Shown here: one piece after another, positions 722-34,300 of the stretch | Numbering within the stretch: position 1 is the first letter of the stretch | How the letters are laid out: the number at the start of each line of letters is the position of its first letter | NCBI GenBank assembly: GCA_026707945.1 | Contig: JAPOVV010000115.1 | Span: 1-64,000 of the forward strand | Origin: Gammaproteobacteria bacterium | GTDB taxonomy: Bacteria > Pseudomonadota > Gammaproteobacteria > Pseudomonadales > Azotimanducaceae | Direction: 5' to 3' | DNA length: 64,000 bases | Position numbers and translations under genes: made by a program | The notes under the pieces: generated by a model | Seen by the model: the letters and a program-made list of their open reading frames with translations, nothing else | Databases searched by the model: none | Told to the model about the DNA's origin: nothing

Positions 722-735
722 CGGTTATATGGTCA
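722..735 (+). other. 23S processing stalk, 5' strand
   Basis: The 14 bases cggttatatggtca pair perfectly with tgaccatataaccg at 4276-4289, bringing together the two ends of pre-23S rRNA. This is the expected RNase III processing stem and fixes the gene ends at about 731 and 4282. Confidence 0.9.
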
Positions 736-1188
736 AGTGACGAAGCGCATCTGGTGAATGCCTTGGCAGTTGAAGGCGATGAAGGACGTTGCAATCTGCG
801 ATAAGCCCCGGGGAGTCGATTAGCAGACTCTGATCCGGGGATTTCCGAATGGGGGAACCCAGTGTCTTAGGACACTATTACGTGCTGAAAGGAAGTGATT
901 CTCATAGGCACGTAAAGCAAACCCGGCGAATTGAAATATCTAAGTAACCGGAGGAAAAGAAATCAACCGAGATTCCCTTAGTAGTGACGAGCGAAAAGGG
1001 AGTAGCCCATCAAGCTGCGGAAGCGTTAGTGGAAGCTTTCTGGAAAGAAGCACGACAAAGGGTGACAGTCCCGTACGCGAAAACGCCTCCGTAGTGACGT
1101 CGAGTAGGGCGGGACACGTGAAATCCTGTCTGAATATAGGGGGACCATCCTCTAAGGCTAAATACTCTCAACTGACCGATAGTGGACG

Positions 1189-1220
<32 letters not shown>

Positions 1221-2644
1221 TTTAGGGGAGTGAAATAGTACCTGAAACCGGATGCGTACAAGCAGTGGGAGCGGCCGTTTCGACGGCTGTGACTGCGTAC
1301 CTTTTGTATAATGGGTCAGCGACTTACTCTTGCTGGCGAGGTTAACCGTTTAGGGGAGCCGTAGGGAAACCGAGTCTGAATAGGGCGATACAGTCTGTAG
1401 GAGTAGACCCGAAACCGGGCGATCTAACCATGGGCAGGATGAAGGTCAGGTAACACTGACTGGAGGTCCGAACCCACCTATGTGGAAAAATGGGGGGATG
1501 ACCTGTGGTTAGGAGTGAAAGGCTAATCAAGCTCGGAGATAGCTGGTTCTCCTCGAAAACTATTTAGGTAGTGCCTCTCATATCACCATCGGGGGTAGAG
1601 CACTGTTTGGGCTAGGGGGTCATCCCGACTTACCAACCCCATGCAAACTCCGAATACCGTTGAGTGCAGTGAGGGAGACAGACGGCGGGTGCTAAGGTCC
1701 GTCGTCGAAAGGGAAACAGCCCAGACCGCCAGCTAAGGTCCCCAAATTGTGATTAAGTGGGAAACGATGTGGGAAGGCACAGACAGTCAGGAGGTTGGCT
1801 TAGAAGCAGCCATCCTTTAAAGAAAGCGTAACAGCTCACTGATCGAGTCGGCCTGCGCGGAAGATGTAACGGGGCTAAATCACATACCGAAGCTGCGGAT
1901 CAACGACCTTTTCGAAGGTCGGGGGTGGTAGAGGAGCGTTCTGTAAGCCTGTGAAGGTGTGCTGCGAGGCGCGCTGGAGGTATCAGAAGTGAGAATGCTG
2001 ACATAAGTAACGATCAAGGGGGTGAGAATCCCCCTCGCCGAATGACTAAGGGTTCCTGCGCAACGATCGTCGACGCAGGGTGAGTCGGACCTAAGGCGAG
2101 GCCGAAAGGCGTAGTCGATGGACAACTGGTTAATATTCCAGTACCGGCGCGTATGGCAAATTGGGGTGACGGAGAAGGCTAGACGAGCTTGGCGTTGGTT
2201 GTCCAAGTTCAAGCAAGTAGGCTGGAACTTCAGGTAAATCCGGGTTCCTTAAGGCTGAGATGTGATAACGAACCGGCTGCGGTCGGTGAAGTCGTTGATG
2301 CCATGCTTCCAGGAAAAACCTCTTAGCGTTAATTACGCGGCGCCCGTACCCTAAACCGACACAGGTAGTCAGGTAGAGAATACCAAGGCGCGTGAGAGAA
2401 CTCAGGTGAAGGAACTAGGCAAAATGGCACCGTAACTTCGGGAGAAGGTGCGCCGCGGTTGGTGATGGACTTCGCGTCCTGAGCTGATGGCGGTCGAAGA
2501 TACCAGGTGGCTGCGACTGTTTACTAAAAACACAGCACTCTGCAAACTCGCAAGAGGACGTATAGGGTGTGACGCCTGCCCAGTGCTGGAAGGTTAATTG
2601 ATCTTGTTAGACTTCGGTCGAAGCTAGTGACAGAAGCCCCAGTT

Positions 2645-2676
<32 letters not shown>

Positions 2677-3309
2677 TAAGTAACGCTAGCCTTAGTAAAA
2701 CTGAACTAAATGCGGGAAACTCCTCGAAAATCGTTCGGTACTCGTTTGGCAAGTTCGCTTGTCATTCAGTAAAAATCCGGCGAACATGGGGACAATCCGC
2801 AGGGAAGATTTGAATGTACCAAAAACCCTCAGAGACTAATACGTTCAGGAACCTCCTATGAATCTTCATGCCGAATGGATCACAGGTTTCGTGGATGGTG
2901 AAGGATGTTTCCATGTGGGCATCAGCACGCACGGGGACATGAAAGCAGGATTCCAAGTCCTGCCGGAATTCACGGTCGTACAACACGAACGCGATGTTCA
3001 GATTCTTTACGCACTCAAGGATTACTTCGGATGCGGCGTGGTTCGCGTGAACCATGGCGACCGGATGGCCTACCGGGTGCGAAAACTCAAGAATCTAACT
3101 GAGAACATCGTTCCATTTTTCATGAAGCACCCTTTGAAGACCAAGAAGAACGTGGACTTTAGGAAGTTCAGATCGGTTCTTCTGAAGATGGAGAAGGGAG
3201 TTCATTTGACGAGCGAAGGGGTTGAAGAAATTCGCCAAATCGCGAACCAGATGAATCGAGGAAGTTCAAGATAGAGTCCGGCTCCGCTGGAAACAACGGA
3301 GAATAACCG
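2677..3309 (+). mobile_element. Group I intron at 23S position L1931 with internal endonuclease gene
   Basis: Self-splicing intron, 633 nt. The 5' exon ends ctaaggt (2670-2676) and pairs with the internal guide gccttag (2689-2695), with the expected U-G pair at the splice site (P1). Intron cgct (2684-2687) pairs with exon-2 agcg (3310-3313), giving P10. The core elements are all visible: P aaatgcgggaaac (2708-2720), Q aatccgcagg (2794-2803), R cagagactaata (2830-2841), S aagatagagtcc (3268-3279), and P9 hairpin ctccg/cggag (3282-3286/3297-3301). The intron ends in G (3309). P4 forms between tgcgg (2711-2715) and ccgca (2797-2801). The endonuclease ORF lies between R and S, that is, in the P8 region. 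L1931 is a known insertion site in some bacterial and organellar 23S genes. Confidence 0.95.
2858..3274 (+). CDS. LAGLIDADG homing endonuclease (intron-encoded)
   Basis: 138-residue protein with one LAGLIDADG motif near the N-terminus (WITGFVDGEGCF, residues ~7-18). This is the one-motif class (as I-CreI, I-CeuI), which works as a homodimer. It should cut intron-less 23S genes around the L1931 site and drive intron homing. The acidic catalytic residue is the Asp/Glu of VDGEG. A good ribosome-binding site (agga, 2847-2850) precedes ATG 2858. The stop codon (3272-3274) lies inside the intron's S element, so coding sequence and ribozyme core overlap. The reading frame is intact, suggesting recent activity. 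Exact recognition site is inferred from the insertion point. Confidence 0.93.
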   Translation: MNLHAEWITGFVDGEGCFHVGISTHGDMKAGFQVLPEFTVVQHERDVQILYALKDYFGCGVVRVNHGDRMAYRVRKLKNLTENIVPFFMKHPLKTKKNVDFRKFRSVLLKMEKGVHLTSEGVEEIRQIANQMNRGSSR

Positions 3310-3356
<47 letters not shown>

Positions 3357-3762
3357 CGATGGCCACACTGTCTCCACCCGAGACTCAGTGAAATTGAAAT
3401 CGCGGTGAAGATGCCGTGTACCCGCGGCTAGACGGTAAGACCCCGTGAACCTTTACTACAGCTTCACACTGGACTTTGACTTAGTTTGTGTAGGATAGGT
3501 GGGAGACTTTGAAGCGAGGGCGTCAGCTCTCGTGGAGTCGTCCTTGAAATACCACCCTTGCTATGTTGGGGTTCTAACTTGGGCCCATTAGCTGGGTTGA
3601 GGACAGTGTGTGGTGGGTAGTTTGACTGGGGCGGTCTCCTCCTAAAGAGTAACGGAGGAGTACGAAGGTGCACTCAGCATGGTCGGAAATCATGCAATGC
3701 GTATAAAGGCAGAAGTGTGCTTGACTGCGAGACCGACGGGTCGAGCAGGGTCGAAAGACGGT

Positions 3763-3838
<76 letters not shown>

Positions 3839-3867
3839 ACCGCCCAAGAGTTCATATCGACGGCGGT

Positions 3868-3945
<78 letters not shown>

Positions 3946-4104
3946 TGGTACGCGAGCTGGGTTTAGAACGTCGTGAGACAGTTCGGTCCCTATCTGCCGT
4001 GGGCGTTTGAGATTTGAGAGGAGCTGCTCCTAGTACGAGAGGACCGGAGTGGACGAACCTCTGGTGTTCCGGTTGTCACGCCAGTGGCATTGCCGGGTAG
4101 CTAC

Positions 4105-4147
<43 letters not shown>

Positions 4148-4431
4148 CCCTCGAGATTAGATCTCACCAAATCTTCGAGATTTCTGAAGGGCCCTCGTAG
4201 ACGACGAGGTTGATAGGCGGGGTGTGTAAGCGTCGCGAGGCGTTGAGCTAACCCGTACTAATTGCCCGTGAGGCTTGACCATATAACCGAGTCCGCGTTT
4301 GCCGGACCATGGTCGACGCAAGTCTTTGAATGATCGGTAATCGGGCGCACGATTGACTTTGGGTCGCTTCATCGAGGACGAATTGTCCAAGAGCGCTTGA
4401 CGCGAGAAAACGCGCGTTGGCGCAACGGTTC

Positions 4432-13348: not shown

Positions 13349-14656
13349 ATGAAAGCATCTCATCGACACGATCAGTCTGAAATTCCTTCCGAGTTTCTAC
13401 CGGAAAACGTGGAAGCTCTGTCATCTGAAGAGGCTCAATTGCAGGACGCCAAATGGTTTCGCTCGGGCGAACCGTTTCGTTCGATGCACAAGAATAACCC
13501 CTGGCTGAAACCACCAGTTGGCGGGAATGGCATACGAGCGACGCGGCCGGACGGTTCGTTAACAGAACCCTTCAAATGCGAACTGTTCGAAGCAGGACGT
13601 AGCGCAGAAGGCGGTGGGCTAAACGGTACTCCGTACTACGATACAACGGTACCGCGTAAGCACAACTACTGGAAGCAGTTTGACGATCTTCCACAAGAAA
13701 CGAAAGACATCAACAAAGCACGACGCGATCTTCAGAAATACGGTTTCTGCTTGATTGAAGATGCGATGAGCGAATACCAATGCTCCTATATGCGGGATCG
13801 TCTTGAGAAGCAGGCTGCGGCAGAACGTGCTTGTGGTTTAGCAGATATGACGCCACACTTCCACATCATGTGGACGTTAGTTAACAAAGGTGAGTGTTTC
13901 GCCAAGTGCATCGAGTTCGACCCAGAATGGGTACAAGGTGGACCGGTGATCGAGCAACTCAACGAAGAATTGCTGGGTCCCGGACATTACGCATATTCAT
14001 TTGCCTCGAATATCGCTCGCCCTGGAAGCTATCCACAAAACCTTCATCAAGATTCCGGTGCGATTCATCCTATTCAAACACCGCACGCCCCAATCCTGGT
14101 AAACACGGTCTACATCATGCAGGACATGAGTGAGGTCAATGGCGGTACATTGGTCATTCCAACAAGCCATCGGATCGTTTCTAACACAAAACCAGGAGAA
14201 GAGGTAGGTCCATTACCTCCGGCAGTGAACATCGAAGCCAAAGGCGGTACGGTTGTGTTGATGGATGGCCGATTATTACACGGAACAGGCGTCAATCACA
14301 CGGATGAGTGGCGCTACATCATGACGAACTCAAACGTCAAGCCTTGGTTGAGACAACAGGAAAACTGGCAGCTTTCGATCGATCCGGACGTATTGGAGAA
14401 CGCGTCAGAAAAGCTACTGCAGCGCATGGGCTATTACTCGTCGGGACTCATCGAGATCGGTACGTATTCAGGACCGAAGACAACGGTTGCAACCAGGCTA
14501 GCCATGGAGCGTGGCCAATACAAGCGTATACCGGCGTTAGATCAACCCGTATCGGACGAGGTTAAGAATGGTCTTTGGATTTACCAGATGAAGCAGAAAA
14601 TCGACGCTGCGCGTGGTGAGAAACGTAAAGGAAACGGCGCGAAGCGGAAGGGCTAG
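13349..14656 (+). CDS. Phytanoyl-CoA dioxygenase (PhyH) family protein
   Basis: 435 residues. Fe(II)/2-oxoglutarate oxygenase fold: facial triad His233-x-Asp235 (NLHQDSG) and distal His311 (LLHGTGVNH), with Arg322 suited to bind 2-oxoglutarate. The segment GGTLVIPTSHR between them is typical of PhyH. The N-terminal ~110 residues are a hydrophilic extension of unclear role and the C-terminus is a basic tail. Cytosolic. Family members hydroxylate CoA thioesters or small lipids; the substrate here is unknown. It lies near a second PhyH-like gene (23155-24084), a MaoC-type dehydratase and two TonB receptors, suggesting lipid catabolism. Confidence 0.88.
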   Translation: MKASHRHDQSEIPSEFLPENVEALSSEEAQLQDAKWFRSGEPFRSMHKNNPWLKPPVGGNGIRATRPDGSLTEPFKCELFEAGRSAEGGGLNGTPYYDTTVPRKHNYWKQFDDLPQETKDINKARRDLQKYGFCLIEDAMSEYQCSYMRDRLEKQAAAERACGLADMTPHFHIMWTLVNKGECFAKCIEFDPEWVQGGPVIEQLNEELLGPGHYAYSFASNIARPGSYPQNLHQDSGAIHPIQTPHAPILVNTVYIMQDMSEVNGGTLVIPTSHRIVSNTKPGEEVGPLPPAVNIEAKGGTVVLMDGRLLHGTGVNHTDEWRYIMTNSNVKPWLRQQENWQLSIDPDVLENASEKLLQRMGYYSSGLIEIGTYSGPKTTVATRLAMERGQYKRIPALDQPVSDEVKNGLWIYQMKQKIDAARGEKRKGNGAKRKG

Positions 14657-17646: not shown

Positions 17647-18888
17647 ATGGAACCGACGCACCGCCAGATTACCTATCGCCTGTTGCCCGTCACGCGCACC
17701 AAAGCCAAGCAACTCGAACGACTGGCGTCCACCTGTCGATTCGTCTGGAATCATTTTCTTGCCAAGCAGCTGAACGACTACCAGTTCGACCGCTGCTTCA
17801 CCGACACGTACGGCTTCAAACCGACGTCAACCAACCAGCCGACCAACTTCTTTTGGCTCGGCAAAGAATTCACCGCCCTGCGCCAGCGTACGTCATGGCT
17901 TCAAGACCACGCATTCAGTGTCGTTCGTTATACGCTGAAATACCAGGCGATTGCCTGGCGCAATTTCTTCAACGACACAACCGGCGACGTGGGCATGCCC
18001 AAGTTCAAGAGCCGCTATGCGGAGGACGATGGCTTCACGAATCCAGACCAGGTGAAAATTGTTAACGGGCAACTCTATGAACCAAAGATCGGCTGGTGCA
18101 AGCTGAGGCGTCGGGGCGGTAACCCGTATCCGGACGGCACACCGAAGCAGGCGCGGGTCATCCAACGGCATGGCAAGTGGTATGCGGTCGTCACCTACGC
18201 CGTGGCACGCGAGGTGTTGCCGGACGACGGTCGCGTCATTGGCGTTGACATGAACGTCGGTCAGGTCGCGACCAGCGAAGGGGAGTTGCTGCATCAAGCG
18301 AGGCTCGATCGTCTAAGGTATCGCAAGCGACGCTATCAGCGCATGATCGCGCGGCGTCAGAAAGGCAGCAACCGACGAGCCAGGGCGAAGCGAAAACTCA
18401 ATCGAACATGTGCGAAGATCGCCAACCAGCGACGCCGCTGGGCGCACGCGACGTCCCGGCACATTGCCGACCAAGCCCATACCGTCGCGGTGGAGGCGCT
18501 GCCGGTCAAGCGTATGAGCAAATCCGCGAAGGGCACCATAGCCCAGCCAGGGAAGCGCGTCAAGCAGAAAGCCGGACTGAATCGTTCGATCCAAGAAACG
18601 GGATGGGGTCAGCTGCGCGCGATGTTGGCGTACAAGGCGGGTCGCTTGGTGACGGTTGATCCGAAATACACCTCGCAACGATGCCACGTCTGTGGGCATG
18701 TCGACAATCGCAGTCGCAAAACACAGGCCATCTTCAAGTGTGTCCGATGCGGACACGAGTCAAACGCAGATATCAACGCTGCATTGAACATCAAGGCGTC
18801 GGCGACTGGCGCTGCTGGACGAGGGAGGATTGAACCGTTAGGTTATCCGATGATCCGTCAAAATGAACCCTGGTTATCACTTGGGTAG
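17647..18888 (+). CDS. tnpB: TnpB RNA-guided nuclease
   Basis: 413 residues, full length for TnpB. An N-terminal helical region (TCRFVWNHFLAKQL) is followed by the OrfB/RuvC-like nuclease with Asp201 (VIGVDMNVG), Glu283 (VAVEALPVKRM) and Asp375 (ESNADINAAL). The zinc ribbon lies between the last two (Cys346, Cys349, Cys365, Cys368). All catalytic residues are present, so it is probably active. TnpB cuts DNA guided by an RNA made from the right end of its element. No tnpA is adjacent. The codon use (CGC, GCG, GTC rich) looks more GC-rich than neighbours, suggesting transfer. The stop codon lies in the right inverted repeat. A TATACT -10-like box (17634-17639) just upstream would give a nearly leaderless mRNA. 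Confidence 0.93.
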   Translation: MEPTHRQITYRLLPVTRTKAKQLERLASTCRFVWNHFLAKQLNDYQFDRCFTDTYGFKPTSTNQPTNFFWLGKEFTALRQRTSWLQDHAFSVVRYTLKYQAIAWRNFFNDTTGDVGMPKFKSRYAEDDGFTNPDQVKIVNGQLYEPKIGWCKLRRRGGNPYPDGTPKQARVIQRHGKWYAVVTYAVAREVLPDDGRVIGVDMNVGQVATSEGELLHQARLDRLRYRKRRYQRMIARRQKGSNRRARAKRKLNRTCAKIANQRRRWAHATSRHIADQAHTVAVEALPVKRMSKSAKGTIAQPGKRVKQKAGLNRSIQETGWGQLRAMLAYKAGRLVTVDPKYTSQRCHVCGHVDNRSRKTQAIFKCVRCGHESNADINAALNIKASATGAAGRGRIEPLGYPMIRQNEPWLSLG

Positions 18889-22019: not shown

Positions 22020-23111
22020 CTATACCGGACGCGTCGGTAGCGCCACAATCGCTGTAGCGTAAGCCGTAGCTAACCCAGATTGGTTCTGGTTTTCAATTGA
22101 CAACTCAACCAGATGGTCCTCGCCATCGACGAACTTTTTGCCCACTTTACCGACAACGGTATTCGTGTCGCCGACGACATTCGGATGACGAACAGACGCA
22201 TGGAGTTTCTTTAACGTGCCGTGGTCCCCCATCCAATCAGTCGCAGCTTGGGCTAACCAACAGACGCGTTGGGGGCCAAAGTCAAACTGACCAGGCATAT
22301 TGCGGCGTTTTTGGGCGTGTTCTTCATCAAAACGACCGCCGCCACCAAGATCGGTCGAACCCTCTGCTGCCAGCGATGCGCGTGTGCTGCGACCCGTACC
22401 AAGTACGCCATGAGTAAATAGAAACAGCTCCGTAACGGAATAGGTGCCTTTCTGTAAGGGATCGAGCTCATCCCCTTCAACGACATCTTCCCAAAAAAGT
22501 GTTTCGTTACCTTGCCGACTTCGCTCAAAGACTAGCGGGTCTGCAGGAACGACCTTACGTTGGCTCGGCTCCTTCGCTTCGCGGTTGTATTCGAGTGTGC
22601 CGCCAGTATTTTGATAGCGAGCCATGAGGGTTTTGATCGTGGCTACCATTTCATGGCGCTGATTGGTGAACGTGACGTGTCCCGTGTTGAAATTGATTGG
22701 TCCGATCCTTGAACTGGTCTTCCGCATCGTCTCGCCGACTGTTTCAGTTGCGGTAATCGTGTCGTCGCGCCAGATTGGACGAATGAAGTCAATCTCCGCA
22801 CCGGCGTAGTTCACAGGAAGGTACTGCGTATTTACCCGTGCTCGGTTAATAGCGCCGGTTTCGCCAGCGACAACCCCTAGAGTAACTGCGTACAGAAACG
22901 TCGGTGCTGCGACAAGATCCTCATAGCGACTGGTAGCCGCGTATTCAGGAGACCTAAATAAGGGGTTGTAGTCACCAACGCCGTCTGCATAGCGTCGTAA
23001 GTTGTCAACCGTCGCTTGTTTCGACGCACGATGTGGCAGGACGGTACCGATACCTTTTCGATACTCGTCTTGGAACTCGTCAAGCGTGGTGATCAGGTTC
23101 GGTTCAGACAT
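22020..23111 (-). CDS. FAS1-like / MaoC-type dehydratase
   Basis: 363 residues forming two hotdog domains. The N-terminal FAS1-like dehydratase domain (ATVDNLRRYADGVGDYNPLFRSPEYA, residues ~33-58, with the D.NPL signature) is followed by a MaoC-like half (LVFERSRQGNETLFWEDVVEGDELDPLQKG...). Such enzymes hydrate or dehydrate acyl-CoA intermediates. A C-terminal stretch AYATAIVALP is the last hotdog strand. Cytosolic. It is 43 bp downstream of the PhyH-like gene on the same strand, so the two probably form an operon for oxidation and hydration of an acyl chain or steroid side chain. Substrate unknown. Confidence 0.85.
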   Translation of the reverse strand: MSEPNLITTLDEFQDEYRKGIGTVLPHRASKQATVDNLRRYADGVGDYNPLFRSPEYAATSRYEDLVAAPTFLYAVTLGVVAGETGAINRARVNTQYLPVNYAGAEIDFIRPIWRDDTITATETVGETMRKTSSRIGPINFNTGHVTFTNQRHEMVATIKTLMARYQNTGGTLEYNREAKEPSQRKVVPADPLVFERSRQGNETLFWEDVVEGDELDPLQKGTYSVTELFLFTHGVLGTGRSTRASLAAEGSTDLGGGGRFDEEHAQKRRNMPGQFDFGPQRVCWLAQAATDWMGDHGTLKKLHASVRHPNVVGDTNTVVGKVGKKFVDGEDHLVELSIENQNQSGLATAYATAIVALPTRPV

Positions 23112-23154: not shown

Positions 23155-24084
23155 TCATGCCGCCTTCTTTCTTTGATCGGCTAATCGAGCGAGACGTTTT
23201 TTGTCAGCTTCAGACATGTACTTGACACCACGGGCGTAGTCTGGACCGTGTTCGTCCCACCCCATGTAATCGTCTGCACCGACTAGTCGAGCAAATTCGG
23301 GTGGATTGCGATCGATCATTTCCTGGGTAACACGCCATTGGTACGCTTCTTGTGTCTTAAGCCGCCGATGACAGTGGTAGCTGGTCACGTTGAGGCGGAG
23401 ACCTTCCGTTTTCTTTGGGAACGCGCCATGCCACGTGTTGCCATGCCAGGCGATCAAGGAACCCGCTTCTGCTTCGACAGGTACTGCTCGCTTCTCTCCT
23501 TCACCAGGGCCTGGTTGACGACAGTACAGATGACTGCCCGGTACCATAGCAATCGCGCCATTGTCCAGCGTGTAGTCGGTGAGACAGTACGCTGCGTTTG
23601 CGACGTCTGAGCATGCGGGTAGATGCCCATCCCGATCGGGGGGCGAGTCGCTGTGCAAACCTAGAGATTCCCGTTCGCCTTTCCATTTGACGAATGAGGT
23701 CATGCTTGAAAGTTGCTGCTGACCGCGCATTAGATAATCGATGAGTGCATAGAGAGTGGGATTCATCACCCACTCTTCGAAGACACGATCCGCCATAAGT
23801 AGGTAAAACAAGAGGAATTGGCCATCTGTTTGTGGCTGTGCCTTGTACTCACCGAATTCGCCGTTGCTATCAAGCGAAAAATCCACGCCAGTACGCTCCT
23901 TACAGAGACGAAGTACGGTATCGCGAATGCGTTCAAAAAACGCCTTGTCTGCCACTTTTTCTGGTGGCACGACCGTAAAGCCGTATGTGTCGAGTTCGTA
24001 GATATTCGTTTCCAGTCCGAGCGATTTGACACGATTGAACGTCTTGTTGAGAGCGTCGGTTGATTTGAACTTTCCGAATTCCAT
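23155..24084 (-). CDS. Phytanoyl-CoA dioxygenase (PhyH) family protein
   Basis: 309 residues. Fe(II) ligands are His144-x-Asp146 (LGLHSDSPPD) and distal His219 (GNTWHGAF), with Arg230 positioned for 2-oxoglutarate. NGAIAMVPGSH between them is a PhyH signature. Its start is supported by an aaagg Shine-Dalgarno about 8 nt upstream. It shows little resemblance to the other PhyH protein in this window outside the active site. The first gene of a probable two-gene operon with the dehydratase. The reaction is likely hydroxylation of a small lipid or acyl compound. Confidence 0.88.
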   Translation of the reverse strand: MEFGKFKSTDALNKTFNRVKSLGLETNIYELDTYGFTVVPPEKVADKAFFERIRDTVLRLCKERTGVDFSLDSNGEFGEYKAQPQTDGQFLLFYLLMADRVFEEWVMNPTLYALIDYLMRGQQQLSSMTSFVKWKGERESLGLHSDSPPDRDGHLPACSDVANAAYCLTDYTLDNGAIAMVPGSHLYCRQPGPGEGEKRAVPVEAEAGSLIAWHGNTWHGAFPKKTEGLRLNVTSYHCHRRLKTQEAYQWRVTQEMIDRNPPEFARLVGADDYMGWDEHGPDYARGVKYMSEADKKRLARLADQRKKAA

Positions 24085-25327: not shown

Positions 25328-26368
25328 TTGACTGAGCGCATAGAAGCCATGGAAGGCACAAATACATCGGATGATTGCGAGCCTTTAAGGGAAGACGCAC
25401 TCTACCCGTTCCCTGAAGGCTGGTACGTGGTGGAGGAGAGTCGCGAACTAGCTTACGGCGAACTGAAAGAACGCAAGTGGCTCGGACACTCAATCGTGTA
25501 CTGGCGAGACCTAAATGGCGACGTGTGCGTCGCTGACGGAACATGCCCTCACCTTGGATCGTATTTGGGTCCTGCGGCCGGTGGGAAATTGAAAAACGGA
25601 CACTTAGTTTGTCCGTTCCACGGGTTTGAATACGATGTCAACGGGACATGCGTGCGCGCACGTGATGTCAAACCCCCACGCTCGGCACGTTTAAAACGTT
25701 TCGCCGTGGCTGAAACAAATGGATTGATATTTGCGTACTTCGGTGGAGATGGAGGCAATCCACGTTGGCGAACGCCGGTTTTCCCTACGGACACTGTGGC
25801 ACGTGGAATCCGTCGCATGAAATTCAGAGCTCATCCACAAACAACGAGCGAAAATTCTGTAGACATGCATCATTTAGAGGAAGTCCACGGCTACACAGAA
25901 TTAACGAAGCTCCGCGAAACTGAAGTTTGTGGTCCTTTTCTATTTTCTTCCTACTCTTTTACTCGCAACATGCTGACGTTTGGTTTGCGCAGACTTAAAC
26001 TCGCGGTAGAAATTTCGATCGGCGTGTGGGGGCTTGGTGTGTCGACCGTTAACGTCGCCACTGAATACGGTATCCTCGCACGGCAGTGGGTTTTGTCGAC
26101 TCCGATTGATGGCGAGATGATTGAAATGTGGTTGATTGTTGATATACGGAGACTGCCTAACTGGTGGTGGCTGAGAAGCCGCCTTCGAAGTCCTGCAGCG
26201 AAGTTGGCGGCGAAGTTAGCAGTGAACGATCTTGAATGGGAAGTAACGAAAGATGCGGTGATTTGGGACAAACAAAGTTACCGTTCACGACCGGCGTATT
26301 CCGCGTTGGATCGGGACATCTCTTTGTTTCGCCGATATTGTGAGCAGTTTTATTCGAAGGTTGTGTAG
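25328..26368 (+). CDS. Rieske non-heme iron oxygenase (sterol/steroid-type)
   Basis: 346 residues from TTG 25328; ATG 25349 is an alternative. The Rieske [2Fe-2S] motif is Cys73-Pro-His75 ... Cys95-x2-His98 (CPHLG/CPFHG). The mononuclear iron site is Asp179, His182, His187 (NSVDMHHLEEVH). The layout resembles steroid- or sterol-active oxygenases such as KshA, cholesterol 7-desaturase (DAF-36/Neverland) and the bacterial C-4 demethylation oxygenase SdmA. I cannot tell which from the sequence alone. The TAG stop shares its G with the GTG start of the downstream GPP34-P450 gene, so the two are translationally coupled and likely act in one pathway. Electron donor genes are not in the window. Confidence 0.87.
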   Translation: MTERIEAMEGTNTSDDCEPLREDALYPFPEGWYVVEESRELAYGELKERKWLGHSIVYWRDLNGDVCVADGTCPHLGSYLGPAAGGKLKNGHLVCPFHGFEYDVNGTCVRARDVKPPRSARLKRFAVAETNGLIFAYFGGDGGNPRWRTPVFPTDTVARGIRRMKFRAHPQTTSENSVDMHHLEEVHGYTELTKLRETEVCGPFLFSSYSFTRNMLTFGLRRLKLAVEISIGVWGLGVSTVNVATEYGILARQWVLSTPIDGEMIEMWLIVDIRRLPNWWWLRSRLRSPAAKLAAKLAVNDLEWEVTKDAVIWDKQSYRSRPAYSALDRDISLFRRYCEQFYSKVV

Positions 26369-28428
26369 TGACAGAAGAAGTACTCGAGTCAGAATCAGAA
26401 GAATCGTCAGAGTCTCATCGGCTTACGATCGCGGAAGAGCTGGTCTTGCTGATGTTGAAGGACGACCTAGGTTTCGTGGCAGCACCGACTTCAGACTGGC
26501 GGATGTGGTGTGGATTTGCCGGAGCCGTCATACTAGATCTTTCGTTCCGAAACCGTGTTGATGCCGATCTTGAACACCTAGTTGTGATCGATCCGACGCC
26601 CATCGGTGATGTAGTCTTGGATCCCGCGCTTGAGATCATCGCTTATGAGCAAACGCCGCGCACCCCCCAGTATTGGGTTGAGTACTTTGCGCCGAACGCG
26701 GACGTATTCATCGAGTTCGTACTGCAAAGACTCGTCAATTTAGGCATCCTCGTGCATGACACGGGTGGCTACTGGCAGCTGAGCAACAAGGTCTTACGCA
26801 CGGGTCAATATATTGGACCCGGGTTAGAACAACAGGAAGAGGTTAAGGCGCGAATTCGTCGTGCCTTATTTGACGAGGAAATACCAGACCCACATGATGT
26901 GACGTTAATCGGATTGCTTTTGGTCTGCGACGGTTTCCGGTCCATGCTAGACGCCGACGAGTTCGAGATGGCACAGGAACGCATCCAGCTCCTCGCGAGC
27001 ATGGATCTGTTCGGGCAGGCGATCCGATCGGCAGTAGGTGATTCGGACCCCGCATCGGCTCAACCGGATCGGCCGAAGAGGCTACCTGTACCGAAGGTGA
27101 AGCTAAGCGCTTATTTGAAATCTAAATCGCTCCGACGAAAGGACATGTGTCGTTTTCTCTCCGAAATGTACGAAGAGTACGGTCCTGTCTTCAGGCTCGC
27201 CCTGTTTGGAAAAGGCAATGTGGTGTTAGCGGGCGCCGACATGAACCAATGGGTGGCTCGACGTGGACGACTGTATCTAAGAACGCGCGACTACCTCGAA
27301 GATTTTCAGACCGCATGGGGTACAGCTCGATCGATCGCTAGCATGGACGGCGCGGATCATTTTCGAATGCGCAAGATTTATCGTGCGGGCACTGCTCGTG
27401 CGGTAGTGGAGGATCGGCTTGGTGACGTATTCCGAATTGGTCGAGAGCGCATCGGAACGTGGTTAGACGGCGATGTGATACCGGGTGAAATGGAATGCCA
27501 GCGTCTCACCGGTTGCCAAATTGCTCAGCTCACTACAAGTATCGACCCGGCCATTGGCGTGCTCGACGGTCTTCTTGAGTATGAGTTTCGCGCCTTGAAG
27601 GTGCACGTGATGGGAGTGATGCCGAAGATCATGCTTCAGACACCACGTATGAAACGATATCTCAAAGATGTACTGGAAGTTTATCGTCAAATCCACGTAA
27701 GTCATACGGAGGAAGAACGGGCTGGAAAACCACGCGATTTCGTCGACGATTTGCTGACACTTCACAAATCGGATCCTCAGTTTCTACCGCAAACCGATCT
27801 CGAATTTGCGTTTCTGGCAACGTTGATTGCCGGCCACTACTTAGGTAGTCAAATGAGCTTCGCGCTGTACGAAATGATGAAGCATCCAGATTGTTACGAC
27901 AGAGTCGCCGCGGAAGCGGATGCGCTTTTCGAGGGCGGCGATCCTACGAAGGATGAAGTCACGATGGACAGCATAGATTTCACCCATCGTTTCATCATGG
28001 AGGTGATGCGCTTACATCCTGTCATACCAGTCCATAGCCGAATGGCGATGAACGAATTTGAAGTAGACGACTACCTCGTACCTGCACGAAGTAGCATCTT
28101 AGTGGCCTTTACCGCAACCCAATATTTGGAAGAACACTTTAAAGAAGCGGATAAGTTTGACCCCGATAGGTTCGGTCCGGATCGGGAAGAACATCGAAAA
28201 CGCGGAGCTTTCTATCCATTCGGGTTAGGTACCCACACGTGTTTAGGATCGCGCTTCACCGAATTGCACTTGGTATCGAATTTGTTGCTCGTCGCACACC
28301 ATTGCGAACTTGAGATGATTCCGAAAGACTATGAACTGAAATTGAGTCCATTGCCAAAATTTAGTCCAAACAAGAGCTTTAAATTTAAAGTGAAGAGCCT
28401 TCGCAATCCGTTGCCGACAGCTGCATAA
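26368..28428 (+). CDS. GPP34 (GOLPH3) domain fused to cytochrome P450
   Basis: 686 residues, GTG start overlapping the Rieske stop. Residues ~17-215 are a GPP34 domain: LTIAEELVLLMLKDD, FAGAVILDLSFRNRV, VVIDPTPIGDVVLDPAL, FVLQRLVNLGIL, VKARIRRALF. In eukaryotes GOLPH3 binds phosphatidylinositol-4-phosphate. The remainder (~235-686) is a P450. It has the heme-Cys motif FGLGTHTCLG with Cys625, ExxR in FIMEVMRLHP, and I-helix IAGHYLGSQ, where the usual acid is His, as in CYP51. No transmembrane anchor is evident, so the GPP34 part may dock the enzyme on membrane. No frameshift or stop separates the two domains. The fusion is unusual to my knowledge. Substrate is unproven; a sterol is suggested by context. 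Confidence 0.92.
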   Translation: MTEEVLESESEESSESHRLTIAEELVLLMLKDDLGFVAAPTSDWRMWCGFAGAVILDLSFRNRVDADLEHLVVIDPTPIGDVVLDPALEIIAYEQTPRTPQYWVEYFAPNADVFIEFVLQRLVNLGILVHDTGGYWQLSNKVLRTGQYIGPGLEQQEEVKARIRRALFDEEIPDPHDVTLIGLLLVCDGFRSMLDADEFEMAQERIQLLASMDLFGQAIRSAVGDSDPASAQPDRPKRLPVPKVKLSAYLKSKSLRRKDMCRFLSEMYEEYGPVFRLALFGKGNVVLAGADMNQWVARRGRLYLRTRDYLEDFQTAWGTARSIASMDGADHFRMRKIYRAGTARAVVEDRLGDVFRIGRERIGTWLDGDVIPGEMECQRLTGCQIAQLTTSIDPAIGVLDGLLEYEFRALKVHVMGVMPKIMLQTPRMKRYLKDVLEVYRQIHVSHTEEERAGKPRDFVDDLLTLHKSDPQFLPQTDLEFAFLATLIAGHYLGSQMSFALYEMMKHPDCYDRVAAEADALFEGGDPTKDEVTMDSIDFTHRFIMEVMRLHPVIPVHSRMAMNEFEVDDYLVPARSSILVAFTATQYLEEHFKEADKFDPDRFGPDREEHRKRGAFYPFGLGTHTCLGSRFTELHLVSNLLLVAHHCELEMIPKDYELKLSPLPKFSPNKSFKFKVKSLRNPLPTAA

Positions 28429-28495: not shown

Positions 28496-31400
28496 TTAGT
28501 CGGGGTAGACGTCGGTACGCGGCGTACCACCCACTGGCAAGGCGCCTCGGATTCGCTTAAGCCACTTTGTGCCCGTTTCTACGACGGCAACCGGGAGAAT
28601 TAACAACGCCGGTGTTACCACGAGAGTGAGGATGGTCGCGAACGAGAGACCGAATGCAATCGCTTGGGCGAGTGGCACCCAATAGGTTGAGAGATTACCT
28701 CCTGACGTCCACGTACGATTGATGAAATCTATGGACTGATGGCTTGCAAGCGGCAACAGACCTATCATCGTCGTGACAGTAGTCAGTATGACGGGTCGTA
28801 GTCTCTGTAAACCCGTTAAGGTCACGAGTCGTACCAGATCAAATTCCGGATGTTCTTTACGGCCTTGGTTGAACGTATCTATCAGGACAATACTGTTGTT
28901 TACGACGATACCTGCCAACGCGATGATCCCCACGCCACTCAGGATAGCACTAAAAGGTGAATTGGTGATCACCAAGCCGAGGAACACACCCGCTGTCGAT
29001 AGCACGATCGCAAAAATCGTAACGAACGACTGATAGATACTGTTGTACTGTGTCACGAGTAGAACGAACATCAAGAGCAACGCGAAGGAAAACGCCTTCG
29101 CAACGAAATCAATCGATTCGGCTTGATCTTCTGCCGTACCTCTAAAGCGAATGCCAACATCCGGGTCGAACGCTTGCTCATCCAACCAAGCTTGGATTTC
29201 ATTGATTTTCGCATCAGCCAGAACTCCCGGCATGACGTCTGCTTGGATCACGTGGATATCGCGTTGATCCCGACGCTGTATTGCGTCTTGACGCTTGACA
29301 GCACGACGTGTTACGAAATTTGAAATCGGCACTAACCCTTCATTTGTAGCGATTTGCAGTTCATCGAGCTGATCAATACTGCGACTGGTGGCTGAGAATC
29401 GAAGCCGAATATCGAGGGCTTCATCGGCGTCGTTTGGACGGTATTCACCGAGCTTGGCACCGTCGGTTATTAGTTGTGCGGCGAGTCCGACTGTAGTTAC
29501 ATCGACACCGAATAGCGCGGCCTTCGCACGATCCACGTCCAGCTGCCATTCGAAGCCGGGAAGTGGGAGCGTGTCTTCGAGGTTTCGGAGGCCGGACACG
29601 TCATTGATCAGATGTTCCCGTACTCTCTCGACGATAGGCGCAAGTTTTTCCCTTTCGCGGGCGGAAAACTGAATGAAAATCGGCTTACCGGCAAGAAGTT
29701 GACCTTCAAACGGCTTGAGATCTACGACGATGCCACCTATTTGAGCTGATTTGTCTCGGATTTCCTCGCCAATTTCGATGCCATTTCGAGTGCGTTGATT
29801 CGCTTCGTGTAGTTCGACCCATATGGTCCCGATGACATCGGCTGCTGAGCCACCTCTATACGTCTGGCGCTGGCCTTCGCCTCGTTCGAAGCCGCTACTG
29901 ATAAATGTACTTGTTTCCTTTACTCCGTCAGTCTCGACGATGGCTCGTTCTACCTCTTTGACGAGCGCATGCGCCTCTTCAATATTCAGATTGCCCCGCG
30001 CACGTACAAAAGCTTGGGAGTAAACCGGATCGTTTTCGTTGAAGAATATGACGCCAAGATCACGCACGTTATAAAGAGAAAAAATCCCGTATACAGTTAA
30101 CACGATCGCCACGAGCGTGAAAAAGGTGTGACGCGCCGCAGATGAAATGAGTTTAGCGTACAAACGCGAAAAGCCTTTGAGCTGGTCAATATCTCGTTCC
30201 CAAGGGCTGGTCTCGCGTGAGGTCACTTCGCGTTCGATGATGTGCCTTGAAAGCGTGGCACCTACGCTTGGCACAAAGATCAATGTGTAGACGAGAGATC
30301 CGACCAAAACTGCGAGTACCGTGAGGGGTAGGTAGCGCATGTATTCGCCTGGTACGCCAGGCCAAAACAGCAACGGTAGAAACGCAGCGAGCGTCGTCGC
30401 TGTCGACGCGGTTACCGGTGTAAACATCCGGCGTGCGGCCTCAGCATAGCCTCGTTCGCCGGAAGCGCCAGCTTCCATGCGACGTTCGGCATCCTCGGTC
30501 ACGATGATGGCACCATCGATCAACATGCCAAGTGCCATCAACATCCCGAACATAACCATAAAGTTGAACGAGTGGCCGAACAACCATAAGAAGACTAGCG
30601 CGAACAGGAAAGAGACGGGAATCGAAAGGGCAACGATAACGCTACTGCGCAGACCGATAGACGGGAGAACGACGGCAAGCACAAGGAATAACGCGGTAAC
30701 GATATTTCCTTCTAACTCCGTTACTTGCTGCATATCGAAGGCCGATGCGTCGCGCGTTATGAATAACTCGATGTTGTCTGGCATCGTCGGTTGAAGCTCG
30801 TCAATTACTTCACGTATGGCTCGCGTCGTGTCGATTGAATTGGCACCGACTTGCCGATAGGGAAACAGCGAAACTGCCTGCTTGCCGTTAGCACGAACAT
30901 AGTGCGTTCGATCCTTGAATGTACGCCGTACCGTCGCAACGTCCGCTAACGTCACAACAGTTTCGCCGTCCGTAAAGAGAGGCAGATCAATAAGATCCTT
31001 TGCCTCTTCGACGACACTCGGTATCTTGAGGGCTATGCTGCCTTTCCCGGAGTCCAACGAACCTGCCGGTATCAATTGATTGTTCCGCGTGAGCGCGAAG
31101 ATCAGTTGCTCGACGGTAATCCCATTTGCGAGCAAGCGCGCCGGTTCAACGGTAATTTCCAGCACTTCGTCACGTTGGCCTTGAATCACGACCGAACGAA
31201 TACCTGGTACTGTTTCAATTCGGTCACGCAGACTCCGTGCAATATCCAACACAAGACGCTCAGACGCGTTTTCACTAACTAGATTGATCTGAACGATTGG
31301 AAAGTCAGTACTTGCGGTCTCCGTGACAACCGGCTCTTCGGCGGTAACAGGTAGCTCAGGTTTGGCGCGGTCGACGGCTTCGCGTACGTCAGCCATTGCG

Positions 31401-31714
31401 ACATCGATATCCATGGAGGCATCAAACTCGACGGATATGTAGGCAATGTGTTCTGCACCGGTGCCCGTAATCTCCTTGACGTTGTCGAGTGCCTTCAGTT
31501 CAAGTTCGATCGGGCGGATAAGTAATCGCGTCGCGTCTTCCGGTGAAATGCCTTCATGTACCACAGTGATCACGAAATAGGGTATCTCAACGCGTGGCTC
31601 GCTCTCAGTCGGGATCGACAAGCGCGCGACGACGCCAAATATCACGATACCGACCATGATCAAGATCATGGAGCGTTTCCGCTCCATTGCAATCTCAATG
31701 AGTTTTTCTTTCAT
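28496..31714 (-). CDS. RND multidrug/lipid efflux permease
   Basis: 1072 residues, the size and plan of an AcrB/HAE-1-type pump: first helix at residues ~15-30, large periplasmic loop, helices 2-6 at ~335-480, a second loop, and a C-terminal helix bundle. TM4 reads GMLMALGMLIDGAIIVTED, so the usual Asp-Asp proton-relay pair is Asp-Gly. It extrudes substrates by proton antiport. It lies 49 bp downstream of its adaptor gene on the same strand. No outer-membrane channel gene is nearby. Position between the P450 and methyltransferase genes suggests a possible lipid or sterol export role, which is speculative. Confidence 0.93.
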   Translation of the reverse strand: MKEKLIEIAMERKRSMILIMVGIVIFGVVARLSIPTESEPRVEIPYFVITVVHEGISPEDATRLLIRPIELELKALDNVKEITGTGAEHIAYISVEFDASMDIDVAMADVREAVDRAKPELPVTAEEPVVTETASTDFPIVQINLVSENASERLVLDIARSLRDRIETVPGIRSVVIQGQRDEVLEITVEPARLLANGITVEQLIFALTRNNQLIPAGSLDSGKGSIALKIPSVVEEAKDLIDLPLFTDGETVVTLADVATVRRTFKDRTHYVRANGKQAVSLFPYRQVGANSIDTTRAIREVIDELQPTMPDNIELFITRDASAFDMQQVTELEGNIVTALFLVLAVVLPSIGLRSSVIVALSIPVSFLFALVFLWLFGHSFNFMVMFGMLMALGMLIDGAIIVTEDAERRMEAGASGERGYAEAARRMFTPVTASTATTLAAFLPLLFWPGVPGEYMRYLPLTVLAVLVGSLVYTLIFVPSVGATLSRHIIEREVTSRETSPWERDIDQLKGFSRLYAKLISSAARHTFFTLVAIVLTVYGIFSLYNVRDLGVIFFNENDPVYSQAFVRARGNLNIEEAHALVKEVERAIVETDGVKETSTFISSGFERGEGQRQTYRGGSAADVIGTIWVELHEANQRTRNGIEIGEEIRDKSAQIGGIVVDLKPFEGQLLAGKPIFIQFSAREREKLAPIVERVREHLINDVSGLRNLEDTLPLPGFEWQLDVDRAKAALFGVDVTTVGLAAQLITDGAKLGEYRPNDADEALDIRLRFSATSRSIDQLDELQIATNEGLVPISNFVTRRAVKRQDAIQRRDQRDIHVIQADVMPGVLADAKINEIQAWLDEQAFDPDVGIRFRGTAEDQAESIDFVAKAFSFALLLMFVLLVTQYNSIYQSFVTIFAIVLSTAGVFLGLVITNSPFSAILSGVGIIALAGIVVNNSIVLIDTFNQGRKEHPEFDLVRLVTLTGLQRLRPVILTTVTTMIGLLPLASHQSIDFINRTWTSGGNLSTYWVPLAQAIAFGLSFATILTLVVTPALLILPVAVVETGTKWLKRIRGALPVGGTPRTDVYPD

Positions 31715-31763: not shown

Positions 31764-32870
31764 TCAACCGGAGACCCACTGGACATCAACCCGTTGACCC
31801 GGTGAGACAAGATCTTGGCCGACTGTGATGATGACGACGTTAGTCGATAAACCACTAACCCAAAGACCATCGCTGTCCTCGGTAACTATCTCGACCTCGT
31901 GAAACTCGACTAAAGAGTTGTTTACTGTGTGGATGCCGAGGGTGCCGTCATCTCCTAACACTAATATCGCGGATGACACCTGATGTGCCATATGCGGCAT
32001 TAACGGCAAACCGACTTCTGCTGTTACTCCTGACCTGATTTCGTAGCCTTCGTTTGGCACCGCGACTTCCACACGAAAAGTACGTGAACTGTCAGCAGCT
32101 TGTTTGCCTATGAACGACACTTCGCCTGCTACGACACGTCCTGTCGCAAGAGTTGCACTAACCTCGGAACCTAACGTTATTTGATCGACAAACTGCTCAG
32201 GAATGTGGACGACAGCGTAAATCGGGTCTAGGTCTAGGATGGTCGCGCAGGGTGAACCAGGAACGAAAAAGTCTCCGACAGTTGCGTGAACACGCTCAAC
32301 GAAACCTGAAATCGGTGCACGAACGACAATATTGGCAAGTGCTTCTTCCGCGAGTACCAACGCATGTTGCATAGCGCTTAGGTTAGCTTTTGCCGCAACA
32401 ACCTCGGACTCGCGCTGGTAGTCGTTCTCGCGTAGTCGCAATGCACCCTCATGTTCAAGTCGGGCGAGTGTCACGGCATCATTGGCGGCTTTTACCCGAG
32501 CATCTCGGTCGTTGACTTCAACGGTACAGATCGGGTCGCCTTTTCTTACGGTAGCTCCGTCATCCGCGTTCCGCTTAATGACTTGACCGGTCGTTTCCGA
32601 TTGCACCGAAGCAACATGTTTAACTTCTGTTTTGCCGTTGAGAGCTAACACACGCGCTTTTTCCGAAGCTACGCTACGTCGCGCTCGCACTGTGACCGGC
32701 TTTCGGGCATTCGCCCGTTCAGCAGCGGCATCGTTAAGCTGCGCGAGACTCGGCTGAATTTCTGTTTCGTCTGCGGCTAATACACCGGACAGCAGCCAAA
32801 TCAGCGCGAGAGCGAATACGGTCGCTGTAGCGGTCGCCCGCCACGCTAGGTCAGACGAGAGGCTGAACAT
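31764..32870 (-). CDS. RND efflux periplasmic adaptor (membrane fusion protein)
   Basis: 368 residues. An N-terminal hydrophobic segment (residues ~10-32, ending LLSGVLAAD) serves as signal or anchor. Then come a lipoyl half-motif (ETTGQVIKRNADDGATVRKGDPICTV), a helical hairpin, and the second lipoyl half (IVVRAPISGFVERVHATVGDFFVPGSPCATILDLDPIYA), a beta-barrel domain and a C-terminal membrane-proximal domain. It connects the RND permease to an outer-membrane channel. First gene of a two-gene operon with the permease. Confidence 0.92.
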   Translation of the reverse strand: MFSLSSDLAWRATATATVFALALIWLLSGVLAADETEIQPSLAQLNDAAAERANARKPVTVRARRSVASEKARVLALNGKTEVKHVASVQSETTGQVIKRNADDGATVRKGDPICTVEVNDRDARVKAANDAVTLARLEHEGALRLRENDYQRESEVVAAKANLSAMQHALVLAEEALANIVVRAPISGFVERVHATVGDFFVPGSPCATILDLDPIYAVVHIPEQFVDQITLGSEVSATLATGRVVAGEVSFIGKQAADSSRTFRVEVAVPNEGYEIRSGVTAEVGLPLMPHMAHQVSSAILVLGDDGTLGIHTVNNSLVEFHEVEIVTEDSDGLWVSGLSTNVVIITVGQDLVSPGQRVDVQWVSG

Positions 32871-33259: not shown

Positions 33260-34300
33260 TTGCCGAGCGACATTAAATTTTTCAGTCTTATTCGCCGGAT
33301 GCGCAGCGCCTATGCGCATTGGTCTGCAGATAGCCGATTAAGTCGACTCGAAAGTCGATCTGATAAGCGATTACGCGGTGAAATAAAGGATGAGGACTAC
33401 GATCACGCGGAAATCGTCAACGATTATTACGATCTATGCCACGAATTTATGGAATACGGTTGGGGGGACTCGCTCCACTTCGCACCAATCGCATCTAATG
33501 AGTCGTTAGAAGAAGCTGTCGTACGACACCAGCGATTGATGATTGAGAAACTTCAGTTAAAAGAGTCGTCGCAGGTGATTGATGTGGGCTGCGGTGTAGG
33601 CGGGCCGATGCGGCGTGTGGCGAAGGAAGCTGGTGTCAAGGTCTTTTGTATCAACAACAATGAATATCAACTGTCTCAAGCGAAACTAAAAAATGAGGCT
33701 GCGAAACTGGACCATCTAGCGGAATACGTGAAATGCAATTTCATGGATATGAGTGCATTGCAACCGAACATGTTCGATGCTGGATACGCGATTGAGTCAA
33801 CGTGTCACGCCCCCGACAAGCGGCGTGCTTTTGCAGAGATTTTTCGTGTGCTAAAACCCGGTGCAAGGTTGTGGGGTCAAGAAATGTGTTTGACGAACGC
33901 CTTTGAACCAGCAAACCAACGCCATCAGACATTGAAGAAAGAATTGATGCGCGGGATCGCACTGAAAGACATTGCGTCGTTTCAGGAGGTAAATCGCACG
34001 TTGGAGGCCGTCGGATTTGAGGTTTTAGAGGCTAATGACCTGGCGGAAGAATCGAGTACACCTTGGTATAACCCGATGGTAAGCCAGAGTGGTTCGTTAG
34101 GAAATTTCTTTCGCCGAACACCGATCGGTCGAGGTGTAATGCAGTGGACGATTCGACTTACCGAATTCGTAGGGTTGTTCCCACCGCACGCTCACAAAGT
34201 CGTGAAGATGATGGATCGAACGGCGGAGGCATACGTAAATGGTGGAAAAGAGGGTGTTTTTACGCCCTTATATTGTTTTGTAGCACAGAAACCGATCTAA
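33260..34300 (+). CDS. Erg6-like sterol C24-methyltransferase
   Basis: 346 residues from TTG 33260 (ATG 33299 possible). It is collinear with yeast Erg6 over almost its whole length. Region I is MEYGWGDSLHFAP (64-76), the SAM site is VIDVGCGVGGP (106-116), then INNNEYQL (131-138) and AIESTCHAPDK (177-187). The C-terminal sterol-methyltransferase domain has STPWYNPM (266-273), FFRRTPIGRG (283-292) and GGKEGVFTPLY..VAQKP. This level of match goes well beyond generic SAM methyltransferases such as tocopherol or cyclopropane enzymes. Such enzymes alkylate the sterol side chain at C-24. Bacterial homologues are known from only a few uncultured lineages. No squalene monooxygenase or oxidosqualene cyclase is in the window, so substrate may be made elsewhere or taken up. 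No other gene overlaps it. Confidence 0.92.
   Translation: MPSDIKFFSLIRRMRSAYAHWSADSRLSRLESRSDKRLRGEIKDEDYDHAEIVNDYYDLCHEFMEYGWGDSLHFAPIASNESLEEAVVRHQRLMIEKLQLKESSQVIDVGCGVGGPMRRVAKEAGVKVFCINNNEYQLSQAKLKNEAAKLDHLAEYVKCNFMDMSALQPNMFDAGYAIESTCHAPDKRRAFAEIFRVLKPGARLWGQEMCLTNAFEPANQRHQTLKKELMRGIALKDIASFQEVNRTLEAVGFEVLEANDLAEESSTPWYNPMVSQSGSLGNFFRRTPIGRGVMQWTIRLTEFVGLFPPHAHKVVKMMDRTAEAYVNGGKEGVFTPLYCFVAQKPI

Follow-up and report, generated by a model that had tools for sequence, protein, structure and literature searches.

The gene at 33260..34300 of the window (the whole stretch of DNA analysed, 64,000 nucleotides) encodes a genuine member of the sterol methyltransferase (SMT) family, yet no ordinary Erg6. 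It belongs to a clade separate from the canonical SMTs, has replaced residues in regions I and IV, is linked to the same companion genes across phyla, and frequently occurs in genomes in which an oxidosqualene cyclase (OSC) was not detected. The reading favored here, at a probability of roughly 0.66, is that of a SAM-dependent C-methyltransferase of the SMT family, rebuilt at its presumed substrate site and lying in a conserved sterol-tailoring and transport cassette. The window holds the complete set, in the order Rieske oxygenase, GPP34-P450, opposite-strand RND pair, and SMT:

25328..26368, + strand: Rieske oxygenase (KshA_C, 47.7 bits; cut-off 23.3)
26368..28428, + strand: GPP34 (Golgi phosphoprotein 3-like)-cytochrome P450 fusion, by domain matches, with the heme cysteine and ExxR kept
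28496..31714, - strand: AcrB-type RND transporter permease (ACR_tran, 504.8 bits)
31764..32870, - strand: HlyD-type membrane-fusion protein, beside the RND permease on the same strand
33260..34300, + strand: SMT-family methyltransferase of the divergent clade (M81, W221, Q223, and M225 in Erg6 numbering)

Family membership of the window SMT

The reading frame is open throughout and yields 346 amino acids counted from the TTG at 33260, in agreement with the preliminary description of an intact gene; the true start is uncertain because an in-frame ATG at residue 14 is available besides the TTG. The translation contains the motifs quoted in that description, and Pfam matches to Methyltransf_11 (63.6 bits; cut-off 21.2) and Sterol_MT_C (61.9 bits; cut-off 21.7) both exceed the curated cut-offs. 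Compared with reference sequences, the protein was 42% identical to Arabidopsis SMT1 (E = 3e-87, 255 bits), 35% to yeast Erg6 (E = 6e-69), and 34% to SMT2, versus 23% to the tocopherol methyltransferase VTE4 (E = 3e-16, 66.6 bits). By these bit scores it lies nearer the SMTs than the tocopherol-type methyltransferases. An AlphaFold2 model reached a mean pLDDT of 89.9 and a pTM of 0.89. The Pfam domains, the reference identities, and this model rule out a chance or misread frame. The nearest solved structures by sequence and fold are small-molecule enzymes (e.g., MitM, RebM, and AtmM), none of the PDB matches listed is named a sterol methyltransferase, and geranyl and farnesyl diphosphate methyltransferases appear among the Foldseek neighbors of the model only from rank 31 onward. 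A tocopherol or other small-molecule methyltransferase was ruled out on scores, despite these nearest structures.

Among 398 genomes sampled across the phylum, a Sterol_MT_C match was found in one, the source genome itself. Within the genus of the window, an SMT was present in 17 of 18 genomes, with up to three in each, compared with one of the 40 other relatives searched. The public records of the close relatives are titled Gammaproteobacteria or Pseudomonadales, in keeping with the gammaproteobacterial context originally proposed. Carriage by phage or plasmid was ruled out, with plasmids lacking a match at an E limit of 1e-30; viral contigs gave nothing with a single-sequence query and 28 weak partial relatives (21–35% identity) with an alignment query. 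Elsewhere in the window, a group I intron (2644-3300; Rfam, 66 bits) sits inside a 23S rRNA gene (731-4282) and contains an ORF for a LAGLIDADG endonuclease (2858-3274; Pfam, 93.6 bits), and an IS605 OrfB / TnpB-type gene with OrfB_IS605 and Cas12f1-like TNB domains occupies 17647-18888.

A divergent clade found in eight named phyla

The claim that the protein resembles Erg6 in its sterol-specific parts holds for the motifs and for Sterol_MT_C and fails in two places. Region I reads F-M-E-Y-G-W, compared with F-Y-E-Y-G-W in Erg6, such that M81 replaces the first aromatic of the Erg6 Y81-E-Y-G-W-G while Y83 and W85 are kept. Region IV reads G-Q-E-M, compared with V-Y-E-W in Erg6, where the Y-E-W standard is that of the reference sequences and several canonical-group SMTs deviate from it too (e.g., I-D-W). 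The preliminary description had proposed a phylogeny with eukaryotic SMTs as a check on its Erg6-like label; in an unrooted tree, 15 divergent representatives including the window SMT were split at 100/100 from 37 canonical sequences (three eukaryotic), and the window SMT does not group with the known 24-SMTs. In a larger tree, 97 divergent-clade sequences fell together at SH-aLRT 100. Identical sequences and four SMT pieces <250 aa (one from L044, an edge piece from L083, and two from L028) were dropped before the trees were built.

Relative to Erg6, the divergent clade carries the substitutions Y81 to M (89/97), Y223 to Q (97/97), and W225 to M (90/97), together with W221 (97/97), while W85 and H90 are retained throughout (97/97) and position 83 is mostly aromatic. 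The region I aromatics are described as ‘required for 24-SMT catalysis’, and a ring (C4)-methylating nematode 4-SMT is described without them (PMC6997595), which speaks against the C24 specificity assigned in the preliminary description. Residues were further classified for the 30 SMT matches that were given as loci from 49 carrier genomes: the pattern was absent from 27 canonical-type SMTs, all from genomes that also bear the divergent clade, and present in three, which belong to the clade of the window. The plainly Erg6-like enzyme of the source genome is a different gene, on another contig (C114, L013:10167-11168).

An alignment scan of named genomes recovered at least 80 divergent-SMT loci, and in all of the best 80 the SMT was nearer to the window protein (52–86% identity) than to four references. 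Among the matches listed, the clade occurs in MAGs of eight named phyla, with records titled Gammaproteobacteria, Alphaproteobacteria, Chloroflexota/Dehalococcoidia/SAR202, Gemmatimonadota, Acidobacteriota, Nitrospirota, Nitrospinota, Acidimicrobiia, and Dadabacteria, and a few only ‘bacterium’. Sample codes indicate a sponge origin for at least 35 of the best 80 loci; these include the jk18x code of Ircinia MAGs (13/80; the code appears in PMC9531527) and the codes COS, RHO, IRC, and APA (22/80), read here as the sponges in the species list of PMC8163846. On the divergent-clade tree, the labels of the eight named phyla required 12 changes against a minimum of seven, therefore some transfer between phyla has occurred, though mixing is not free. 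Two SMT frames, measured from stop to stop (L076:8309-10996, 896 aa; L105:8786-11014, 743 aa), may possess an extra N-terminal part. An apparent gene family at eight loci (representative L054:10001-11125, minus strand) is antisense to the SMT gene and was rejected as spurious.

Companion genes of the divergent SMT

Neighborhoods were counted at the 76 of the best 80 loci that extend over at least 8 kb, with shorter loci left out. Clustering of ORFs recovered the P450 at 54 loci and the Rieske oxygenase at 36, each spanning six named phyla, and the RND permease at 29, from three named phyla; a flavin amine oxidase appeared at 22 loci, an MMPL transporter at 16 (Chloroflexota alone), and a GH116-like protein at 13. 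Direct BLAST with the window proteins found the P450 in 57, the Rieske enzyme in 49, and the RND permease in 29. In 51 of 54 loci, no more than 5 kb separates the P450 from the SMT (median gap, 156 bases), and a BLAST match to GPP34 occurs in 54 of 55 locus P450s, the 55th being a 360-aa frame at a contig start. The adjoining oxygenases, which the preliminary description had noted beside the methyltransferase, are thus recurrent partners around loci of the divergent clade. Exceptions include the 22 of 76 loci that lack the P450 and the 13 of 76 that lack P450, Rieske, and RND alike (several of these stretches are short), as well as a genus member (G006) with SMT and P450 on separate contigs. 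In two genomes that gave no SMT match, the loci L246 (G029) and L248 (G013, 77% complete) combine the GPP34-P450 and RND permease with a membrane-fusion protein and an outer-membrane channel.

Domain assignments were made on a single representative for most families, along with the window proteins themselves. The Rieske representative contains a KshA_C domain, as does the window enzyme, in which the C/H ligands and the mononuclear-iron D/H/H motif are present and the stop overlaps the start of the GPP34-P450 gene by one base. The heme cysteine and ExxR are conserved in 56 of 56 GPP34-P450s (window included), while the usual acid/alcohol pair of the I-helix is missing. All 56 have Y where the CYP51 of the source genome has H, with no threonine among the residues listed at the next position, and for this reason the chemistry of the fusion may be unusual. 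Many RND pumps export multiple drugs, and the window permease itself best matches multidrug subfamilies. Two MMPL family representatives matched the sterol-sensing domain (47.7 and 23.5 bits; cut-off 22.3) and, weakly, the BstA model (36 and 41 bits; cut-off 1400); in Methylococcus, candidates for bacterial sterol transport have been described (PMC10942540). At L093:6464-8953 and 15 more Chloroflexota loci, the MMPL pump replaces the AcrB-type RND beside the divergent SMT, and the L093 representative has both sterol-sensing and Patched domain matches. Upstream of the window cassette lie two PhyH-family dioxygenase genes and a MaoC/FAS1-dehydratase-like gene (13349-14656, 22020-23111, and 23155-24084), some or all of which are kept in near relatives (L053, L063, and L245) and are seldom found by the SMT in other carriers.

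As a control, 29 canonical-SMT regions were inspected, four of which are cut by contig ends or one-sided. The P450 fusion was present in the five regions that contain a divergent SMT as well and absent from all of the remaining 24, compared with its presence at 54 of 76 divergent-clade loci (Fisher p ~1e-10, with related loci and a few short control regions). An OSC was found near the canonical SMT in 10 of 29 regions (two of which hold both kinds of SMT) versus one of 76 divergent-clade loci. SMT distances correlated with those of the partners (Mantel r = 0.65, 0.75, and 0.50; 0/999 permutations as high), and because the loci behind these linkage and correlation figures are related, shared genome ancestry could inflate them. 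Across the 398 phylum-wide genomes the P450 fusion was present only in the source genome, and among relatives it was present in 20 of 58, including all 18 that bear an SMT (17 of the 18 from one genus). The Rieske neighbor is not unique to the divergent clade because canonical SMTs also have KshA-type Rieske neighbors (L013, L236, and L237), which belong to a different subfamily and are 27% identical to the window enzyme. In titles and the opening parts of abstracts in the open literature, a cassette of SMT, GPP34-P450, Rieske, and RND/MMPL is not described, and matches for GPP34 with cytochrome P450 in bacteria all concern insects by title; as far as found in the open literature, the conserved cassette is undescribed.

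Sterol synthesis genes in the source genome and other carriers

The window corresponds to contig C37 of a 3.80-Mb genome that is 96% complete. DCTAE is a motif of OSCs and DxDDTA of squalene-hopene cyclases. The genome has two OSCs, both with DCTAE: a fused squalene epoxidase-OSC of 1131 aa on contig C31 (L011:9613-13008) and a free OSC on contig C114 (L012:9297-11246) that is 53% identical to the fused one, compared with one OSC copy each, or pieces at contig ends, in the 10 remaining genomes of the genus that bear an OSC. It also encodes three ERG4/ERG24-type reductases and, on C114, the canonical SMT paralogue (46.6% identical to SMT1) with an FA_hydroxylase-family protein ~5 kb away. Contig C31 additionally holds a P450 (taken as CYP51), a Rieske oxygenase, an HSD-type dehydrogenase, and a squalene/phytoene synthase. 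Because of the OSCs, reductases, FA_hydroxylase, C31 genes, and canonical SMT, de novo sterol synthesis in this genome is likely. Two membrane-like proteins without a Pfam match (L011:13060-13728, beside the squalene synthase, and L013:15228-15902, beside the FA_hydroxylase) are candidates for a missing sterol step, and relatives of the former recur by OSC clusters in carriers.

The OSC search covered 49 carrier genomes reached from 50 of the best 80 loci (L126 left out), which partly overlap the set of relatives, with G016 and G058 giving the same places. An OSC was present in 14 of the 49, all with DCTAE; another 14 had only weak cyclase matches (12 with DxDDTA and two without the motif), and 21 had no match whatsoever to the cyclase query. 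An OSC was therefore not detected in 35 of 49 carriers, some of which may be incomplete genomes. Incompleteness is unlikely to be the whole reason because four chromosome-titled records (OX638346, OX638325, OX638327, and OX638332) lack a detected OSC as well. With OSC often undetected in its carriers, the divergent SMT would frequently be INDEPENDENCE from sterol synthesis. The sole SMT match belonged to the divergent clade in 17 of the 49 carriers, each without a detected OSC, and 13 of the 14 OSC-bearing carriers had two or more SMTs. Against a simple split, additional SMT matches, including several canonical ones, turned up in 18 carriers with no detected OSC. In the genus of the window, OSC was found in 11 of 18 genomes and the P450 fusion in all 18. 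Open frames of 1132–1484 aa recur around the OSC in 13 of the 14 OSC-bearing carriers.

Proposed function and alternatives

Because of the company of the cassette and the frequently undetected OSC, the divergent clade most likely tailors and moves sterols that are often acquired. For the order of steps, the role of GPP34, and the direction of transport, we infer the following. The sterol would be made by the cell, as is probable for the source genome, or, for the many carriers in which no OSC was detected, would be obtained from a eukaryotic host; the divergent SMT would methylate it and the Rieske enzyme and P450 would oxidize it, with the GPP34 domain possibly anchoring the P450 at the membrane and the pump carrying the product across the envelope. 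That the substrate of the divergent SMT is a sterol is considered quite probable. The side chain of an already alkylated sterol is the preferred site of methylation, at slightly less than even odds, while C26 and ring C4, taken together, are somewhat unlikely. A broader scenario, in which a phylum-mobile cassette allows sponge symbionts that do not make sterols to methylate and oxidize those of the host, and in which the SMT with its changed site would be the missing enzyme behind unconventional sponge sterols (e.g., the C26-methylated ones underlying the 26-methylstigmastane biomarker), is improbable and offered as speculation.

It is unlikely that the enzyme is an ordinary C24 SMT like those characterized by Brown et al. 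(2023), one whose regions I and IV have drifted harmlessly and whose neighborhood reflects only gene islands shared among symbionts. Family membership and the invariant W85 and H90 are consistent with such an enzyme, as is a largely complete de novo sterol pathway in the source genome; the window SMT would also pass the filter of that study (Erg6 BLAST of ≥30% identity and E up to 1e-50), in which 20 of 24 metagenomic SMTs were active (PMC10070321). Set against this, the replacements are fixed or nearly so across the clade and absent from the 27 canonical-type SMTs, and the OSC accompanies canonical rather than divergent genes. The C24 reaction is uncertain because the residues thought to stabilize the C24 cation are gone, and the loss of these aromatics weighs most heavily against plain C24 methylation.

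A variant of the main reading that differs in the site of action, also judged unlikely, is a ring or terminal-carbon methyltransferase that acts on C4 of 3-oxo sterols, as the nematode 4-SMT does, or on C26/C27 to give 26-methyl sterols. DAF-36 is a Rieske enzyme, and the cassette likewise pairs an SMT relative with a Rieske oxygenase. The 4-SMT, which acts in a pathway with the DAF-36 desaturase and without the region I aromatics, has minimal identity to 24-SMTs (PMC6997595), whereas the window SMT is 34–42% identical to them. C26-methylating enzymes remain undiscovered, and aplysterol is the main sterol of Aplysina aerophoba (PMC10070321). The clade, however, keeps W85 and a mostly aromatic position 83, and the families present in at least five loci (one representative each scanned) include no known dehydrogenase or oxidase that forms 3-oxo sterols. 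Methylation of a non-sterol prenyl lipid, with a product processed by the P450 and exported, is distinctly unlikely. Botryococcus has squalene and botryococcene methyltransferases and some dictyoceratid sponges are rich in sesterterpenes; the 21 carriers unmatched by the cyclase query and the prenyl diphosphate methyltransferases among the Foldseek neighbors would fit such a substrate. Sterol_MT_C is nevertheless kept and the nearest references in sequence are sterol enzymes, and the sterol character of the SMT, the KshA-type Rieske enzyme, and some transporters (those matching the sterol-sensing domain model) is the strongest evidence against it.

Significance and comparison with known systems

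Alkylated sterols preserved in ancient rocks serve as evidence for early eukaryotes and sponges. Bacterial side-chain alkylation has been demonstrated (PMC10070321), but the enzymes behind some sponge-type sterols have yet to be identified. An SMT clade with two oxygenases and a pump, in eight named phyla among the matches listed and with many carriers lacking a detected OSC, points to symbiont modification of host sterols on a wide scale, and the cassette supplies a short list of enzymes for direct assay.

Bacterial SMTs and clustered sterol genes are both published (PMC10070321, PMC9531527), and a bacterial SMT is no longer the surprise that the preliminary description took it to be. Brown et al. 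(2023) assayed 24 metagenomic SMTs and observed side-chain alkylation of sterols with 20 of them (8/10 and 12/14; PMC10070321); these enzymes share with the window enzyme the SMT family, an origin in uncultured bacteria, several of them sponge symbionts, and in some cases sterol gene clusters, and a fused SMO/OSC like that of the source genome is also mentioned. Their clusters differ in being named by erg and sdm genes, with no P450, Rieske, GPP34, or RND in the main text, and some of the enzymes tested may belong to the divergent clade. Erg6, SMT1, and SMT2 share the SAM motifs, W85, H90, and the C-terminal Sterol_MT_C but have Y81, Y223, and W225 where the divergent clade has M, Q, and M, and the two fall on opposite sides of the 100/100 split. 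Nematode STRM-1 is another SMT relative without the 24-SMT region I aromatics in a pathway with DAF-36, but it is eukaryotic and distant in sequence (PMC6997595). ERG24-CYP51-LSS clusters with ERG6 are reported from Ircinia symbionts of 10 phyla (PMC9531527). The cassette differs from these in lying on another contig of the source genome and in often being present without a detected OSC, and neither Rieske nor RND is mentioned in the main text of that study. The same kind of host is nonetheless shared, with the jk18x code on the 13 loci noted above; SMT1/ERG6 or FDFT1 flank the core genes of the Ircinia clusters (PMC9531527), as in 10 of the 29 canonical regions here, and the C31 cluster of the source genome is alike.
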